From Fibrobacter sp. (GTDB taxonomy: Bacteria > Fibrobacterota > Chitinivibrionia > Chitinivibrionales > Chitinispirillaceae): a stretch of 34,214 nt of DNA. The translations under genes and the position numbers were made by a program. The stretch spans positions 1 through 34,214 of the forward strand of contig JAAYIG010000050.1 in NCBI GenBank assembly GCA_012523595.1, read 5' to 3'. Shown here in pieces: positions 24,351-34,214 of the stretch (position 1 is the first letter of the stretch; every line of letters starts with the position of its first letter). Below the pieces are notes generated by a model. The model made no database searches. It was not told where the DNA came from and saw only the letters and a list, made by a program, of their open reading frames with translations.

Positions 24351-24449
24351 TCTCGGAGGTGAAAATGTGACTTAATCAGTTAAATTACAGGGTTACCTCG
24401 AAGGTGAAACCGTGACTTAACTCGTTAAATCACGTAGTTATCTCTGAGG
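24351..24449 (+). repeat. Three tandem REP-like units, 45-nt period
   Basis: CTCGGAGGTG at 24352, CTCGAAGGTG at 24397 and CTCTGAGG at 24442 are spaced exactly 45 nt apart. The first two continue GTGAAAAT/ACCGTGACTTAA and then a GTTAAATTAC/GTTAAATCAC end. In unit 2, GTGACTTAA (24412-24420) and TTAAATCAC (24425-24433) pair 8 of 9 around CTCG, a second hairpin after the CCTC/GAGG one. The same core recurs near 31541, 31666, 32036, 32164, 33677, 33755 and 33868. Confidence 0.7.
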
Positions 24450-26541: not shown

Positions 26542-28728
26542 ATGGGAAAAATCTGGACATTATTGCTGGTTTGCTCTCTTGGCATCTTATCATTTCAGCA
26601 AGGGGCTCTCGCACAGTATGATGATTTCGGGGGCGACTTGGATGATTGGAATGATGCCGATCTGGAAGCTTTAGAAAGCGAATTCGATCTGGAAGGGGAA
26701 TCAACACCTCCCCCTGCTCCGGCAAAGAGTACTCCCGCTCCTGAAAAGCAACCCTCAGTGGAAAAAACCGAGGCACCAAAGCCTGCTGCTGTCACAACTC
26801 AGCCGCAGCCTGCCACACCCACACCGAGTTCATCTATAAGCACTACACCTGCTCCGGCGCCCGCACCAGCTCCGGTTTCTACACCTGCGCCCTCTCCGGC
26901 ACCTTCTCTTTCCATTCCTACTGTTACATCAGGTACTGCTGTTCTGAGAGCCGGGCCTCCTCAGATCCTTATCACAAGACCTGTTTACGCCCCTTACTCA
27001 ACCGAAGAAAAAACCATGTATATTGCCGCTGTATCTGAAGCTTATTTTCATTTGAAAATTGGTGCACTGCCGGGTATTCAGGTGATATCGCAGGAGAAGA
27101 TAGCTAACAATGTTCAATACTTCAGAGATTTCTCCCGTCGTATTTCCAGAACTTCCTATATAGATGCAGCAAAGAAACTGGGCGCCACTTATCTGTTTTA
27201 TCAGGAATATGAACCTCAGGGCAAAAAGGTTAAATTCAATCTGGAGCTTTATTCTATTGCCGAGAACAAAAGGCTAACCTCCAGTACCCAGGAATTTGCT
27301 ATCCAGGAGATTGAAAACGGATTGTTTGATTGTGTAAACGAGATTGCGACCGCTCTGGTTGGTACTATTCCCTCAGACGTACAGACGATCCTGGCAACTG
27401 ATGTACTTGGTAAAAATTCAAAGGCGATTGAAACATTTGGAAATCAAATCGTTTCTGTAGGTGATTTTTCCCAGAAAAGAGCGGAAAATGCGGTTAATGG
27501 CTTTGAAAAGCTGGTCAATCAGAATTCTCAGATGCATGCAGCAAGGTTTATTACAGCCGCTATCTGCTCCAGAGCAAAGCAGTATGATAAAGCTATTAGT
27601 CACCAGAAAAAGCTTATCTCCACTTTTGGCAGTTCATATCCGGCTCTCTACCTGCAGTTAGCTTCATACTATCGTCAGGGCGGCAAATACAATGATGCGC
27701 TGGATGCTGCAGAGCAGGCTATGAGTGAAAATTCGTTGGAACTTCCCGCAAAGGCTGAAATTGCAAGAATTCATGAGGCCAAAGGGGATTTGAGCAGAGC
27801 CAAGAGTGAATATCTCTCTGTACTTGAAAAGGGCGGAGAAGATGGAGAAATCTATTTCCAGCTTGCTTTGGTCAGCATTGGTCTTAATGATCTTTCCGGC
27901 AGCTCCAGCTATTTATCCAAAGCGGCTTCTGCAGGACGGGAACTGGACAGAGGTGATTATTATGACCTTGGTTTAAGGTATGCAGCTCTGGGGAGCGCAA
28001 ACGATCAGGCAATAGAGGCGTTCAGAAAAAGTCTTGGTATTCAGCAGGATAATGAAGATGCCTGGAGGCAGATGGCTGAATTGTACTCAAGAATGCGTCA
28101 GGACAGTGCAGCAGCAGAATGTTACATAAGCCTCTTCCATATCAATAACGAAGCCTACAAAGATTATCTGCCCAAGGCAGGAATGATGTTTGAAGGGTTG
28201 GGGATGACTGAACGCGCCAAAGATGTTTACTCGCTCTTTCTGGCCAGAAGATATACAGATGTGGAAGTTTCTGTGAGACTGGCAAAGATCGAGGTTCAGG
28301 AGGGAAATTGTAAGAGAGCTGTTGAGCTTGTTGATGGAATGGACACTCTCCCCTCAGTGGGAATGGAAGTTAAAAGAATAATGGAGCAGTGCGGCCAGCC
28401 GGAACGCAGAGTAGTTGTAGCTACCGGAACAGGAGACAAAAAATGGGTTCCTGTTTTTATCTGGAGAGTTGCCTCAGGTGTTCTCACAGCGGGTGCTATA
28501 GGAGTAGGGTATTTCTGCGATATGCAGGTAGCAGAAAAATACGATCAATATCAACAGGATAAGGAAAAAGGTAAAGGCGATTATGGCAATTATGTTTATA
28601 TAAATGATCTACACAATCAGATCGAGAAGTGGAAGAATTACCGAAACTATAGCTACATCGGTGCTGGTATTGCAGGGTTAAGTTTCGCGGTTTCTATCCC
28701 TTTACCCATTATCTTTTCTAATCGTTGA
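26542..28728 (+). CDS. Secreted TPR protein with acidic and Pro/Ala-rich N-terminus
   Basis: 728 residues. A signal peptide ends near residue 25 (SFQQGALA-QYDD). An Asp/Glu-rich stretch (26-54) and a Pro/Ala/Thr-rich flexible linker (about 55-130) follow. A domain at about 135-275 (ILITRPVYAPYSTEEKTMYI, DAAKKLGATYLFYQEYEP) resembles the periplasmic CsgG/FlgO/TolB-N-like anticodon-fold group. TPR-like helical repeats cover about 325-610. Two hydrophobic segments near 637-655 and 706-725 end the chain, so it is anchored in a membrane with the TPRs probably periplasmic. AGGAAGGG precedes the ATG. The lipoprotein gene starts 8 nt after its stop. The function is unknown, perhaps envelope assembly. 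Confidence 0.75.
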   Translation: MGKIWTLLLVCSLGILSFQQGALAQYDDFGGDLDDWNDADLEALESEFDLEGESTPPPAPAKSTPAPEKQPSVEKTEAPKPAAVTTQPQPATPTPSSSISTTPAPAPAPAPVSTPAPSPAPSLSIPTVTSGTAVLRAGPPQILITRPVYAPYSTEEKTMYIAAVSEAYFHLKIGALPGIQVISQEKIANNVQYFRDFSRRISRTSYIDAAKKLGATYLFYQEYEPQGKKVKFNLELYSIAENKRLTSSTQEFAIQEIENGLFDCVNEIATALVGTIPSDVQTILATDVLGKNSKAIETFGNQIVSVGDFSQKRAENAVNGFEKLVNQNSQMHAARFITAAICSRAKQYDKAISHQKKLISTFGSSYPALYLQLASYYRQGGKYNDALDAAEQAMSENSLELPAKAEIARIHEAKGDLSRAKSEYLSVLEKGGEDGEIYFQLALVSIGLNDLSGSSSYLSKAASAGRELDRGDYYDLGLRYAALGSANDQAIEAFRKSLGIQQDNEDAWRQMAELYSRMRQDSAAAECYISLFHINNEAYKDYLPKAGMMFEGLGMTERAKDVYSLFLARRYTDVEVSVRLAKIEVQEGNCKRAVELVDGMDTLPSVGMEVKRIMEQCGQPERRVVVATGTGDKKWVPVFIWRVASGVLTAGAIGVGYFCDMQVAEKYDQYQQDKEKGKGDYGNYVYINDLHNQIEKWKNYRNYSYIGAGIAGLSFAVSIPLPIIFSNR

Positions 28729-28736
28729 GGTGGAAT

Positions 28737-30596
28737 ATGCGAAAGAAAACTGGATTATTGCTGGCTCTCTTATCTCTGTTAGCGGTGATGAGTTGTACCG
28801 ATGTTCCATTCGATCATCCCCTGGATGCTCAAGGGAGTAATTTCATAGGAAAGAATAACCCGGATTTGCTCCTAGATGAAGATGGGAATGGAATACCATA
28901 TTTTCTCGAAGATGATGACGGGGATGGGATACCAAATTATAAAGACCCGGATAATGACACTATAAAACCGGTGATTACCCTGACTGGTGAAATGACAGTC
29001 TATATCAAAGTCAAAGATCCTGAAAAAAAGGTGGAGCTCTATTCCAATATCAAATCCGGCTACTGCAGCGCGGTTGATGATATAGATGGAGATATCACCA
29101 GTGAGATTAAAATCACCCATAATATTTCAGTTTTTATTCCGGGGACATATCAGATGACTTACACAGTCTCGGACAGGGCATTCAATGCTGCTGACCCGGT
29201 AATCCGTACTTTTGTGGTAGTCCCTGAATCAGTAGTAGATACTTCCGGCCCGGTGATCAGTCTTAACGGCCTTCCCGAAGTAACAATTTACCAGGGAACG
29301 GAATATAATGAACGCGGAGCAGAAGCTTATGATATCGGTGATGGCCAGCCTTGCGCAGTTACAACAAGTGGAGAAGTAAATACTGCTGTTATTGGAAGGT
29401 ATGAAATAACATACACTGCAGTGGACTCTAAAGGCAATGTTTCTTCTATAAAGCGTACTGTAGTTGTGCAAGCGGTACATGAAGAAGACAATATTCCGCC
29501 AGTTATTACTCTCAATCCACCGGACTCCGTTTTCCTAGAATTGGGTCAAGCATTCGTTGATCCGGGAGCCACAGCAATAGACAACAAAGACGAAAATATT
29601 ACCAACAAAATCCAGGTAACCAATCCGGTCAAAGTCGACAGTGCTGCAGTTTACTGGGTGATTTACACTGTAACTGATGAGGCCGGTAACTTCACATCAA
29701 AACGCAGATACGTAAAGGTGGGTGGTGGAGGCGATTTCACTCCACCGGATCTTACTCTGATTGGTGAAGACTCTATGGCCATAGCAGTTGGAGCAGATTT
29801 TGTTGATCCTGGGTATACAGCCGTTGATGATGTTGATGGGATAATCACCAATCAGGTTACCAAAGATCCTCCTACAATCAATACAAGTGTCGAGGGACTA
29901 CACATTATTACATACACGGTATCTGATGCTGCGGGTAATGTCACACAAAGAACAAGGAAAGTGATGGTTTCCAGCACAATCACTCTTGATCAGGTACCCC
30001 CTGTGATAAAACTCCTGGGCGATAATCCGGATACGGTAACAGTTGGAAAGAGTTGGACAGACCCTGGCTGTACTGCTACCGATAACATGGATGGGACAAT
30101 TACCTATAATGTCAAGAAAGAGGGTGAAGTCAATACCCAGGTAGTGGGAGAATACACAATAACTTACTCTGTCAGCGACAAAGCTGGAAATAAGACTGTA
30201 GTAACCAGAACAGTTATTGTAACGGCGGTTGTCAGCCTTTTCCAGAAATACGGTGTCCCATCTCCAGACCCTCTTCCGGCCGTTGGTAATGCCCAGTATA
30301 AGAACCACACTATCGAGGGTGATGCTGATCCCGATATGCTTTATACTGTTACCTCATTTACTTTCAACTGGGATCCAGGACAGAACAAAATTTACAGTTT
30401 TGCATTTAATTACGGTGTTTCTCCATACTACAAGAACTTCGAACCTGAACACAATTTCAATTCTCCAAAGCCCAAATTCACACTTGAGGACTCAGAGGTG
30501 GATGGTCTTGATGGAGAATACTATATCGTAATGCAGGATGAAAACTGTATCTGGGTAAGAACAGACGGCAGCTTCGCCATAATCTGGGAGCCATAA
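28737..30596 (+). CDS. Lipoprotein with Asp-rich calcium-type repeats and five Ig-like (DUF5011/HYR-like) domains
   Basis: 619 residues from ATG 28737, preceded by GAGGTGG. The frame also opens at TTG 28725, which is less likely. The signal ends in a lipobox (LLAVMSC, Cys20). Next comes a thrombospondin-3-like acidic stretch (DEDGNGIPYFLEDDDGDGIP) that probably binds calcium. Five repeats of about 80 residues follow, each opening like PPVITL and closing like YTVSDAAGN...R.V.V, the DUF5011/HYR beta-sandwich. The last 110 residues are unique and rich in Tyr, Asn and Asp. It is likely surface-exposed and adhesive or structural. It is co-transcribed with the secreted TPR protein and ends just before a strong terminator. 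Confidence 0.85.
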   Translation: MRKKTGLLLALLSLLAVMSCTDVPFDHPLDAQGSNFIGKNNPDLLLDEDGNGIPYFLEDDDGDGIPNYKDPDNDTIKPVITLTGEMTVYIKVKDPEKKVELYSNIKSGYCSAVDDIDGDITSEIKITHNISVFIPGTYQMTYTVSDRAFNAADPVIRTFVVVPESVVDTSGPVISLNGLPEVTIYQGTEYNERGAEAYDIGDGQPCAVTTSGEVNTAVIGRYEITYTAVDSKGNVSSIKRTVVVQAVHEEDNIPPVITLNPPDSVFLELGQAFVDPGATAIDNKDENITNKIQVTNPVKVDSAAVYWVIYTVTDEAGNFTSKRRYVKVGGGGDFTPPDLTLIGEDSMAIAVGADFVDPGYTAVDDVDGIITNQVTKDPPTINTSVEGLHIITYTVSDAAGNVTQRTRKVMVSSTITLDQVPPVIKLLGDNPDTVTVGKSWTDPGCTATDNMDGTITYNVKKEGEVNTQVVGEYTITYSVSDKAGNKTVVTRTVIVTAVVSLFQKYGVPSPDPLPAVGNAQYKNHTIEGDADPDMLYTVTSFTFNWDPGQNKIYSFAFNYGVSPYYKNFEPEHNFNSPKPKFTLEDSEVDGLDGEYYIVMQDENCIWVRTDGSFAIIWEP

Positions 30597-30613: not shown

Positions 30614-30640
30614 GGGCGCTTTAAAGCGCCCTTTTTTTTT
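30614..30640 (+). terminator. Rho-independent terminator of the TPR/lipoprotein operon
   Basis: The perfect 18-nt palindrome GGGCGCTTTAAAGCGCCC (30614-30631) is followed by nine T residues. It lies 18 nt after the lipoprotein stop. The stop codon of the convergent gene (30623-30621) is inside the stem. On the minus strand the A-run precedes the stem, so it terminates mainly plus-strand transcripts. Confidence 0.93.
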
Positions 30641-31175
30641 CTTCTGCCCTGATATATTCTTCCAGACTTTCTGCAAATTCATCCAGTTTCTCTCTCAGAA
30701 TCTTCAGGTAAAACCAGTTAATGGATTTATCAAGAGTAACATTCTGAATAAAGCTCAGAACAGATATTTCATCTTCTCTGATAACACTGTAACTAGCATG
30801 GTAATCGAGAATACGGGGAAAAAGTTTACTGTTCTGTCTGGACTCGATCATCTCAATTTTCACCATCGAGCTCTCAGGCAGGAAAATCCGCCTGTAAACA
30901 GACCTGCTGGAATAGAACAGATATTTTATAAGAATTTCAATATCGTAGTGTCTTTCCCCGGTACTAAGTAGTTTCTGATCCGATGCATCAGTGGAGTAAA
31001 GCTTAACATGCTTGAAGTCGTAAAGCAGGAAGAGCAGAGAGTCAGTCTGAAGACTGCTGTTCAGGGTAAATTTGTAAGTGAATTCATTTTCTGAGTGTAT
31101 GAAAACGGGTGAATTAATATGAGAAATTACCGGGAGAGCTGAAAGAAAGTATAAGAACGCAGCAAAACGCATCAT
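30621..31175 (-). CDS. Secreted protein of unknown function
   Basis: 184 residues from ATG 31175 (tandem ATG at 31172), with CAGGAG upstream. The frame is open to 31229, but that extension removes the signal peptide from the N-terminus. A signal sequence MMRFAAFLYFLSALPVISHI is followed by a mixed alpha/beta region with many Tyr, Ser and Leu residues and a charged helical C-terminus (LREKLDEFAESLEEYIRAEE). I recognise no family. The last codons run through the terminator of the convergent operon. It is probably periplasmic or attached to the envelope. Confidence 0.65.
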   Translation of the reverse strand: MMRFAAFLYFLSALPVISHINSPVFIHSENEFTYKFTLNSSLQTDSLLFLLYDFKHVKLYSTDASDQKLLSTGERHYDIEILIKYLFYSSRSVYRRIFLPESSMVKIEMIESRQNSKLFPRILDYHASYSVIREDEISVLSFIQNVTLDKSINWFYLKILREKLDEFAESLEEYIRAEEKKRAL

Positions 31176-31347
31176 TGATCTCCTGTCCGGAACCAAATTC
31201 CGGAACAGGGCAGATTTTAATTTCCGCACCTGGTGAATTGTGTTTCTTGTTTTATTTCTGGAATCAAAATGTGTGCCTTAGATTCCAATTGTTATCGAAG
31301 AAAATTTCTACAGCAATATTAACCCTACTGGGCTCGTATAACTTATA

Positions 31348-31432
31348 GCGGTAAGGTAATACCGCAACCTCCTTCTTAAGGGTGAAGGTGCATGAAACCC
31401 CCGGTCGGAAAAAACTGAACGGGGGTTTTTTA
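31348..31432 (+). ncRNA. Three-hairpin structured RNA, copy A
   Basis: Hairpin 1 is GCGGTA-AGGTAA-TACCGC (31348-31365), 6 bp with a 6-nt loop. Hairpin 2 is CCTTC-TTAAGGGT-GAAGG (31371-31388) inside the conserved core CCTCCTTCTTAAGGGTGAAG (from 31368). Hairpin 3 is a rho-independent terminator, CCCCCG (31398-31403) with CGGGGG (31420-31425) and a T-run. The core is shared with copies B and C, while both flanking hairpins differ completely in sequence and keep their shape. No gene follows on this strand, so it is likely a free small RNA. A short ATG frame at 31391 (MKPPVGKN) is not kept in B or C. Confidence 0.65.
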
Positions 31433-31540
31433 TTATTTATAAGATCGAAGCTGGGATTTGAGGTACCGAGGCATTAGATGCCAAATACTGGTTCTATTCT
31501 TGAGGAGATGAAAATGGGATGTTCTAAATAGGCTTCTGAT
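31433..31540. other. Spacer with no recognised feature
   Basis: About 110 nt between RNA copy A and the duplicated block. No open frame with a ribosome-binding site was seen. Confidence 0.4.
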
Positions 31541-31570
31541 TTACCTCAAAGGTAAAACAGTGACTGTTAA
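31541..31570 (+). repeat. REP-like element (unit 1, first)
   Basis: TTACCTCAAAGGTAAAACAG then TGACTG. TTACCT and AGGTAA can pair as a short hairpin, followed by the family's AGTGACT tail. Confidence 0.6.
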
Positions 31571-31665
31571 ATAACTGATTTACTTGCATGTCTAAATCAA
31601 GAAAAAGCACAGAGTTTTCTTTCTGTTAGAATGTTTTAGAAATTTTGAGGGTGAGAAATGACAAA

Positions 31666-31690
31666 TTACCTCAGAGATGAAATAGTGATC
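31666..31690 (+). repeat. REP-like element (unit 1, second)
   Basis: TTACCTCAGAGATGAAATAG then TGATC. It has the same CCTC-A-GAG core and AGTGA tail as the other family members. Confidence 0.6.
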
Positions 31691-31814
31691 TTTCCACTTT
31701 CCGAAGCAAGTAATATGGCTTGGGTATTTCGGGATTGCTATTTTGAGGAATTTTTCATGGATCGATATCCCAAAACAAGACACAATAATTCCACATAACA
31801 TGCGAATTAATTAT

Positions 31815-31906
31815 GGTGACTGAAAGGTCACCACTTCACATGCCTCCTTCTATAGGGTGAAGGTGCACGAGGCCCTTGCTGAGCTACGGTTCGGCAAGGG
31901 TTTTTT
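31815..31906 (+). ncRNA. Three-hairpin structured RNA, copy B
   Basis: Hairpin 1 is GGTGAC-TGAAAG-GTCACC (31815-31832). Hairpin 2 is CCTTC-TATAGGGT-GAAGG (31846-31863). The terminator hairpin is CCCTTGC (31873-31879) with GCAAGGG (31894-31900) and six T residues. The linker between hairpins 1 and 2 is 10 nt here and 2 nt in copy A. A 15-codon frame from ATG 31814 (MVTERSPLHMPPSIG) overlaps hairpins 1 and 2 but is absent from copy A, so RNA structure is the better explanation. The 60 nt upstream are conserved in copy C and may contain the promoter. Confidence 0.65.
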
Positions 31907-31910
31907 ATTA

Positions 31911-32032
31911 TTAAGGTATCTCACTGATCAAAGATAATGTGTATCGTAGCAGGTCACGGGAGTTAGGTAAAACACGCCTTAACGCTTCATCAGCACTGAA
32001 CCAGGAAGGATCTCTCCCCGGCTCACCCTTCC
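31911..32032 (-). pseudogene. 3'-terminal fragment of a Nudix hydrolase gene (duplicated)
   Basis: The minus strand encodes EPGRDPSWFSADEALRRVLP and on to a stop at 31913-31911, matching the last 37 residues or so of the Nudix gene at 32443-32847. The few differences are conservative (Glu/Asp, Gln/Arg, His/Tyr). The Nudix box and start are absent, so it is a dead fragment left by the tandem duplication. Confidence 0.88.
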
Positions 32033-32035
32033 AAT

Positions 32036-32065
32036 TTACCTCAGAGGTAACACAGTGACTGATAA
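32036..32065 (+). repeat. REP-like element (unit 2, first)
   Basis: TTACCTCAGAGGTAACACAG then TGACTG. TTACCTC and GAGGTAA are perfect complements around a single A, giving a 7-bp palindromic core. Confidence 0.65.
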
Positions 32066-32163
32066 ATAACTGATTTGCCTGAATGTTTGAATCGAGGTAA
32101 AAATACGGAGTTACCTTTTTGTAAGAACGTTTAGAAATTTTGAGGCTAAAAATGGTTGTTAAA

Positions 32164-32187
32164 TTACCTCAGAGATGAAATAGTGCT
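32164..32187 (+). repeat. REP-like element (unit 2, second)
   Basis: TTACCTCAGAGATGAAATAG then TGC. It is identical to the core of the 31666 element. Confidence 0.6.
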
Positions 32188-32347
32188 TCAACATGCACCA
32201 AGGTCTTAAGCGATTAACCACTATTTCTATCTTCCAAACCAGGCAATTAAGGCATGGGCTTTGGGGAATTGCTATTGTAAGGAACTTTTCATGGATCGGT
32301 ATCGAAAACAAGACACAATAATTCCATACAACATGCGAATTTAATAT

Positions 32348-32438
32348 GGTGACTGAAAGGTCGCCACTTCACATGCCTCCTTCTATAGGGTGAAGGTGCA
32401 CGAGGCCCTTGCTGAACTACGGTTCGGCAAGGGTTTTT
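32348..32438 (+). ncRNA. Three-hairpin structured RNA, copy C
   Basis: Hairpin 1 is GGTGAC-TGAAAG-GTCGCC (32348-32365). The single change from copy B (A to G in the 3' arm) turns a U-A pair into a U-G wobble, so the stem is kept. Hairpin 2 is CCTTC-TATAGGGT-GAAGG (32379-32396). The terminator is CCCTTGC (32406-32412) with GCAAGGG (32427-32433) and five T residues. The element ends 5 nt before the stop codon of the convergent Nudix gene, so its terminator may also protect that gene from plus-strand read-through. Confidence 0.65.
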
Positions 32439-32442
32439 ATAA

Positions 32443-32847
32443 TTAAGGTATCTCGCTGATCAAAGATAGAGTGTGTTGCAGCAGATCACGGGAGTTAGGT
32501 AAAACACGCCTTAATGCTTCCTCAGCACTGAACCAGGAAGGCTCTCTCCCCGGCTCACCCATTCCGGAGGTTTTAAGAAACCTGAAGAGAAAAAAAACGA
32601 CTTCATAGTTTTTCCCCCCGAAACAGTAGTTAAGAATACCAGTTTTTTTAACAATTTCTCCCTCTATGCCGGCTTCTTCGTAAAGTTCCCGCCTGGAGGC
32701 TTCTTCCTCGGATTCTCCGTCTTCCAGATGTCCTTTGGGGAATACCCACTTAGTGGGATCCTTTTTAGACCGTATTAGCAGAATTTTAACCTGCCGGTCG
32801 ATAATCCTGAAGACAATCGCACCAGCCTGGTGGACAGGGATTTTCAT
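32443..32847 (-). CDS. Nudix hydrolase (MutT / Ap4A-hydrolase-like)
   Basis: 134 residues from ATG 32847 (MKIPVHQAGAIVFR). A TTG at 32877 opens the frame but adds no family sequence. The Nudix box is perfect: GHLEDGESEEEASRREL then YEEAGIEG (G-x5-E-x7-REL-x-EE-x-G-I). KWVFPKGHLEDGE, KILLIRSKKDP and the terminal WFSAEEAL fit the diadenosine-polyphosphate/NUDT2-like branch, which clears Ap4A or capped nucleotides. The substrate is inferred only. There is no clear ribosome-binding site. Its last codons are duplicated at 31911-32032. GerW lies 31 nt upstream on the same strand. Confidence 0.92.
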   Translation of the reverse strand: MKIPVHQAGAIVFRIIDRQVKILLIRSKKDPTKWVFPKGHLEDGESEEEASRRELYEEAGIEGEIVKKTGILNYCFGGKNYEVVFFLFRFLKTSGMGEPGREPSWFSAEEALRRVLPNSRDLLQHTLSLISEIP

Positions 32848-32878
32848 GGTTAAAAAAATAGTATATCCGGGGTCCAAA

Positions 32879-33676: not shown

Positions 33677-33699
33677 TTACCTCAGAGGTGAAACAGTGG
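33677..33699 (+). repeat. REP-like element
   Basis: TTACCTCAGAGGTGAAACAG then TGG. CCTC and GAGG pair around one A, and TTA/TGA extend the stem with one G-U pair. Confidence 0.65.
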
Positions 33700-33970: not shown

Positions 33971-34214
33971 ATGGCGACCAAACCAAGAATGATCGTCCCG
34001 AACGCCTTCTACCAAATCAAATCCGCCTGCATCCCTGAACTAAAAGTCTTCTCAAGTGAAAAAATGAAGAATTTCCTACTCAAACAGATCTCTATCGCCA
34101 AGGAAAAGTACTCCTTCAAGTGCTTCTCCTGGTCTATCATGGATGACCACTATCACCTGGTGGTTCAATCCAGCGAAGAAACCATCTCCAAATTCATGCA
34201 GCGGGTTAACTTTA
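33971..34214 (+). CDS. REP-associated tyrosine transposase (RAYT, Y1/IS200-like), N-terminal part
   Basis: 81 codons run to the window edge without a stop. The start MATKPRMIVPNAFYQIKSAC matches the family opening (M-x-RKPR...PGAFYHV). The HUH nuclease motif is DDHYHLVVQ (His-Tyr-His where family members often have NHVHLLI), and ISKFMQRVNF follows as usual. GGAGG lies 4 nt before the ATG. The catalytic tyrosine would be beyond the window. Such single-copy domesticated transposases cut single-stranded REP hairpins and spread them without inverted ends of their own. The many REP-like units upstream support this. Confidence 0.88.
   Translation, partial: MATKPRMIVPNAFYQIKSACIPELKVFSSEKMKNFLLKQISIAKEKYSFKCFSWSIMDDHYHLVVQSSEETISKFMQRVNF

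Follow-up and report, generated by a model that had tools for sequence, protein, structure and literature searches.

The question raised by this locus is whether three short, similar sequences near one end of a 34,214-nt stretch of Fibrobacter sp. DNA (contig JAAYIG010000050.1, family Chitinispirillaceae; this whole stretch is hereafter called the window) encode an RNA and, if so, how that RNA might act. A preliminary description had proposed an RNA present in three copies, and the coordinates, stem arms and core that it gave for the three loci were all recovered in our analysis. In each of copies A, B and C, a nearly invariant core of 25 nt lies between a 5' hairpin and an intrinsic terminator; the parts are as follows.

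31348 to 31431, plus strand: sRNA copy A (type 1); fold z -4.4; 91.4 bits with covariance model R1 and 69 bits with R2; orthologues in other genera.
31348 to 31365, plus strand: 5' hairpin of copy A, GCGGTA-AGGTAA-TACCGC; paired in 14/14 copies, with differing sequences.
31368 to 31392, plus strand: core of copy A, CCTCCTTCTTAAGGGTGAAGGTGCA; CCTCCTT and GTGANGNTG invariant in 14 copies.
31368 to 31374, plus strand: anti-Shine-Dalgarno CCTCCTT within the core of copy A, identical to the 16S 3' end of the relative G008.
31394 to 31431, plus strand: intrinsic terminator of copy A, stem and T-run.
31815 to 31906, plus strand: sRNA copy B (type 2, with an extra ACTTCACATG 5' of the core); fold z -6.3; R2 75.1 bits.
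32348 to 32438, plus strand: sRNA copy C (type 2); fold z -6.6; R2 74 bits; 96% identical to B.

In copy A, the 5' hairpin is followed by AA, CCTCCTTCTTAAGGGTGAAGGTGCA and the terminator. Copies B and C instead carry a GGTGAC hairpin, the linker ACTTCACATG, CCTCCTTCTATAGGGTGAAGGTGCA and a terminator unlike that of A; copy A was assigned to type 1, and B and C to type 2. The replacement of a U-A pair by U-G in the 5' hairpin of copy C (GTCACC to GTCGCC) was also seen. The fold z-scores are relative to 200 dinucleotide shuffles per copy, none of which was as good. None of the 4227 Rfam models matched the window at its gathering threshold, so the RNA is undescribed in Rfam, as had been suggested. 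At relaxed thresholds, all matches were below threshold and were taken as chance; the best score was 27.3 bits where 49 are required, and the families concerned, His_leader (RF00514) and rimP (RF01770), at 27 bits against gathering thresholds of 49 and 47, have only a terminator-like hairpin in common with the RNA.

Part of the similarity among the three copies is explained by the recent history of the locus.

31533 to 32560 (31533-32027 and 32028-32560), no strand: tandem duplication of about 500 bp, with repeat families D1, D2, D3, D4, D6 and D8.

The duplicated unit contains REP-like repeats, a type-2 sRNA and the 3' end of a NUDIX gene, and its segments are 96% and 91% identical. Copies B and C are the products of a recent tandem duplication; their likeness is therefore little evidence, and they count as one observation. 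Copy A lies outside the duplicated block, as stated before, and the independent evidence for the RNA comes from relatives, not from the window. The duplication has also left behind, at 31907-32028, an incomplete copy of the 3' end of this NUDIX gene, which itself lies at 32443-32877. Six REP-like repeats, ACCTCAGAGGTGAAACAGTG, were located at 24395-24414, 31543-31562, 31668-31687, 32038-32057, 32166-32185 and 33679-33698, against a chance expectation of 0.01. Most of them are near the start of a Y1_Tnp transposase (33971-34214, plus strand; IS200-like, RAYT-type; Pfam PF01797, E 1.7e-7), which is cut by the end of the window, and they are possibly the transposase's own REP family.

Further copies were located using sequence patterns and the two covariance models. 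When 100 relatives were searched with the core pattern, exact or with at most three mismatches, seven further genomes of the family proved to have it, always flanked by a hairpin and a terminator. Model R1, built from eight copies of type 1 or type-1-like, was run over 168 genomes of the phylum and found copies in nine genomes, all of the window's family; one match in G017 (25.6 bits) was rejected because it has no core. Model R2, run over 40 genomes of the order, scored 14 true copies at 53–78 bits and everything else at 22.7 bits or less. The divergent copy in G003 came to light when the pattern was relaxed and syntenic loci were searched without filtering, and G003 was the only one of the match-less family genomes in which the unfiltered model detected a homologue at these loci. 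This brings the total to 14 copies, spread over 10 genomes and seven genera, all Chitinispirillaceae by their record names; patterns and covariance models together added 11 homologues beyond the window, with covarying stems. The two types occur in tandem in three genomes (the window's, G008 and G010), and no genome has more than three copies, all at one locus.

The core pattern was also used to scan all GTDB representatives and picked out 31 stretches. The family members among them are real. Of the others, the nine with the highest scores were read and look like chance matches that have no paired hairpin and no terminator; the remainder have low scores. L011 (G067, another family), L123 and L124 were rejected on the same grounds. 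Within the data searched, the sRNA occurs in a single bacterial family, and we have little doubt that the sRNA gene is real.

Alignment of the copies showed two contrasting modes of conservation. CCTCCTT and GTGANGNTG are unchanged in 14/14 copies (alignment A5), and the longest invariant block in the core is exactly the anti-Shine-Dalgarno 7-mer; the divergent copy in G003 keeps CCTCCTT, with much of its other core changed. The outer stems differ almost wholly in sequence among copies, yet their pairing is always kept. In the 5' hairpin, five positions form standard pairs in every one of the 14 copies, with 3–6 pair types each; pairing is found in 100% of cells compared with 60% after shuffling of the 3' letters, and the hairpins score z -1.4 to -4.2 (mean -2.8) against their own shuffles. 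This supports the selection on RNA structure proposed earlier. The terminator stem also covaries, with two-sided changes at seven pairs, although a terminator must pair anyway. The central stem CCUUC/GAAGG is nearly invariant: U-G variants in G002 and G012 keep the pairing, and in G003 the stem is down to three pairs. The data allow this stem, but as it hardly varies they put it to little test. An alternative CCUU/AAGG hairpin was rejected since it is not kept across copies, and an alternative CUUCAC/GUGAAG helix in type 2 is 3.8 kcal/mol weaker than the main fold.

The same alignment bears on whether the sequence might be a short coding gene. Type 2 does contain ATG CCT CCT TCT ATA GGG TGA, but type 1 is without a matching start codon, most type-1 copies have a stop (TAA) in frame, and the stems vary without a codon pattern, so that coding is hardly credible.

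The genes around the RNA were compared among the genomes that carry it.

26542 to 30596, plus strand: TPR protein gene, then a lipoprotein gene with five Ig-like domains (surface); homologues near the sRNA in six genomes.
30621 to 31229, minus strand: divergent neighbour gene for a secreted-type protein of about 180–200 aa with no Pfam match; homologue beside the sRNA in five genomes.
31314 to 31342, plus strand: promoter-like element of copy A, with CAATA at 31314-31318, 16 bp, and CGTATAAC at 31335-31342; putative function.

Homologues of the divergent gene adjoin the sRNA in the window, G001, G006, G008 and G010, covering four genera and nine copies, and their proteins are 26–56% identical across genomes. 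The TPR and lipoprotein genes are a pair kept in the family; in four genomes (the window's, G001, G006 and G008) their homologues are close to the sRNA; in two more, G004 and G013, the sRNA is directly 3' of the lipoprotein gene. G002 and G012 have a setting that differs from the rest and is common to the two. The surface-protein neighbours are 26–73% identical between genomes, compared with the nearly unchanged RNA core.

These neighbourhoods are difficult to reconcile with a mobile or repetitive DNA element, such as a REP, a MITE or a transposon end, which the preliminary description had entertained as a mobile non-coding element. The occurrence of three copies within 1.1 kb, with REP-like repeats and a Y1 transposase close by, would fit such an element. 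However, the REP-like repeats are a sequence separate from the sRNA, and the core occurs only three times in the whole genome, all at this locus, whereas REP/RAYT families are palindromes dispersed together with a Y1 transposase. Relatives likewise have at most three copies at a single locus, with neighbours conserved over genera and unrelated stem sequences: the same divergent neighbour recurs in five genomes of four genera, and the RNA comes directly after a homologous lipoprotein gene in two more. The distribution in one family only also speaks against mobility, and no sRNA was found in the viral contigs searched, in phages with copy B as the query or in plasmids with copy A as the query. 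The mobile-element reading is largely refuted, and we give it next to no weight.

Most copies are preceded by CAATA, a spacer of 15–16 bp and CGTANTA, and CAATA-N15/16-CGTA is similarly placed in nine genomes. In the window and G010, the type-2 copies have a weaker form of the motif, and G003 has only the CGTAATA part. We read it as a putative promoter, and its position predicts a transcript start at the 5' hairpin. It was also tried as a regulon marker and rejected: matches were not clearly commoner than in a reversed control, and the match at G000:C76 is inside a coding region.

The window sRNA is oriented opposite to both flanking genes, and no same-strand gene follows the copies until the transposase ORF at 33971, as previously noted. 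A cis-acting leader, riboswitch or attenuator of a downstream gene would account for the hairpin-plus-terminator architecture and for the weak likeness, below threshold, to Rfam leaders of the terminator type (His_leader scores 27.3 bits where 49 are required), and a same-strand gene does lie about 150–250 nt downstream in G004 and G013. On the other hand, the next same-strand ORF in the window is 1.5 kb away, no downstream gene was found to be conserved across contexts, and there is no conserved alternative antiterminator pairing. We therefore consider a cis-acting role very unlikely. The terminator is present in 14 copies and the predicted promoter motif in most, as in a stand-alone gene, and the absence of a conserved downstream gene agrees with the earlier preference for a stand-alone sRNA over a riboswitch.

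The invariant CCUCCUU links the RNA to translation. It is the 16S anti-Shine-Dalgarno sequence of G008, an sRNA-bearing relative whose 16S 3' end reads GGATCACCTCCTTTCT, and this bears out the resemblance that had been pointed out from the window. The 16S 3' end of the window genome itself was looked for and not found. At L070 (G008:C12:63-77), the 16S 3' end GGAAGGTGCGGCTGGATCACCTCCTTTCTATGG has two words in common with the sRNA core. Ribosome-binding sites in the family are moderately purine-rich, with GGAG upstream of 40/145 starts versus 7/145 in the background. Hfq (PF17209) is absent from 24 family genomes, while five control genomes, including E. coli and B. subtilis, were positive; an Hfq-dependent sRNA would require an encoded Hfq. 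Since the core has the anti-Shine-Dalgarno sequence, the gene is stand-alone with its own terminator, and no Hfq was found, the best reading is a trans-acting sRNA that pairs with the Shine-Dalgarno sequence or ribosome-binding site of mRNAs independently of Hfq, and we hold this reading to be probable, with modest confidence.

Under this reading, each locus is a gene in its own right, encoding a non-coding RNA some 80–95 nt long and having a predicted promoter of its own. A protective hairpin forms the 5' end, the ultraconserved core supplies a central hairpin of 5 bp, and an intrinsic terminator follows. The gene is inherited vertically within one bacterial family as two sibling types. CCUCCUU and the adjoining core bases would pair in trans with the Shine-Dalgarno region of selected mRNAs, and this pairing would block ribosome binding and silence the mRNA with no involvement of Hfq. 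As the core copies the ribosome's mRNA-binding tail, the RNA probably silences by covering ribosome-binding sites. Perfect complements of 13–14 nt were found at the ribosome-binding sites of mRNAs at G000:C241:15425, G006 adk and G008:C41:46874. The gene at G000:C241:15425 (L183) encodes a secreted protein, and copy A is perfectly complementary over 14 nt to its ribosome-binding site, CCTTAAGAAGGAGG.

Three points weigh against this explanation. The core had been described as exposing CCUCCUUC, which is only partly right: in the predicted fold, mainly the 5' CCU (in part) and an 8-nt loop are left open, but CCUUC, at the 3' side of the anti-Shine-Dalgarno stretch, is mostly paired with GAAGG. 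The complement search gave no conserved targets, as the long-complement mRNAs of G000, G006 and G008 come from genes that are not orthologues of one another, and ribosome-binding sites with TTAAGAAGGAGG are also present in genomes where no sRNA was detected. Finally, conservation is equally strong in GTGANGNTG, the 3' half of the core; Shine-Dalgarno pairing would not by itself account for this, and there is room for a protein partner.

The RNA might accordingly be a sponge or scaffold for a non-Hfq RNA-binding protein, with the core as the binding site and the tandem copies raising its dosage. Conservation on both sides of the central hairpin, beyond the needs of Shine-Dalgarno pairing, would suit such a role, as would the tandem types in three genomes and the largely paired anti-Shine-Dalgarno stretch of the predicted fold. 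However, no short motif is repeated within one RNA, unlike in CsrB-type sponges, no candidate protein was found, and the longest invariant block would then happen to be exactly the anti-Shine-Dalgarno 7-mer. We regard a sponge as possible but rather unlikely.

The core could also mimic the 3' end of 16S rRNA, binding the ribosome or a 16S-maturation factor with a global effect on translation. The core and 16S helix 45 have the 8-mer GAAGGTGC in common, and the final 40 nt of 16S rRNA contain both it and CCTCCTT, with their order swapped. The 8-mer is not kept, being GAGGGTGT in G012, GAAGGTGT in G002 and GAAGATGC in G003, yet most of the 16S ends read do have the 16S word GGAAGGTGC. The match is moreover that of a short word made post hoc, and we treat the match with helix 45 as coincidence; mimicry is improbable. 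Slightly more doubtful still is its elaboration, in which the sibling RNAs as a pair imitate the 16S 3' end (the anti-Shine-Dalgarno sequence together with GAAGGUGC, a word from helix 45) and bind factors of the ribosome or of maturation. If true, it would mean RNA-based translation control in Hfq-less bacteria.

A ribosome-binding-site-pairing sRNA, the reading that we prefer, has counterparts elsewhere. The alpha-r14 sRNAs of Rhizobiales (NfeR1, SmelA075) carry CCUCCUCCC in three hairpins with highly different stems (PMC10746234, PMC3927594), and silencing at ribosome-binding sites has been tested for NfeR1 (PMC10746234). The RNA described here is similar in having several hairpins, freely changing stems and an ultraconserved anti-Shine-Dalgarno motif. 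It differs in that the motif is CCUCCUU, occurs once per RNA and is partly in a stem, whereas that of alpha-r14 is unpaired in three hairpins; here it is followed by the conserved GGGUGAAGGUGCA, the phylum is another one, and no Hfq was found. SisA-D of Caulobacter are sibling sRNAs sharing a 10-mer with an anti-Shine-Dalgarno signature and were recovered with Hfq (PMC12559287); the likeness, by description and not by sequence, is in homologous siblings with this signature, while SisA-D belong to another phylum and number four compared with two tandem types here. RoxS, FsrA and CsfG act on their mRNA targets through C-rich stretches, and no RNA hub protein is known in their species, Bacillus subtilis (PMC8216469). 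They too are likened by description, with no Rfam-level sequence relation to this sRNA.

In summary, the locus belongs to an undescribed, phylogenetically supported sRNA family in little-studied anaerobes in which no Hfq was found. Its probable mode of action would add a lineage with anti-Shine-Dalgarno-type sRNAs beside the alpha-proteobacterial and Bacillus examples, and the covariance model, together with the tandem sibling pairs, offers a ready means to test how targets may be chosen without Hfq.
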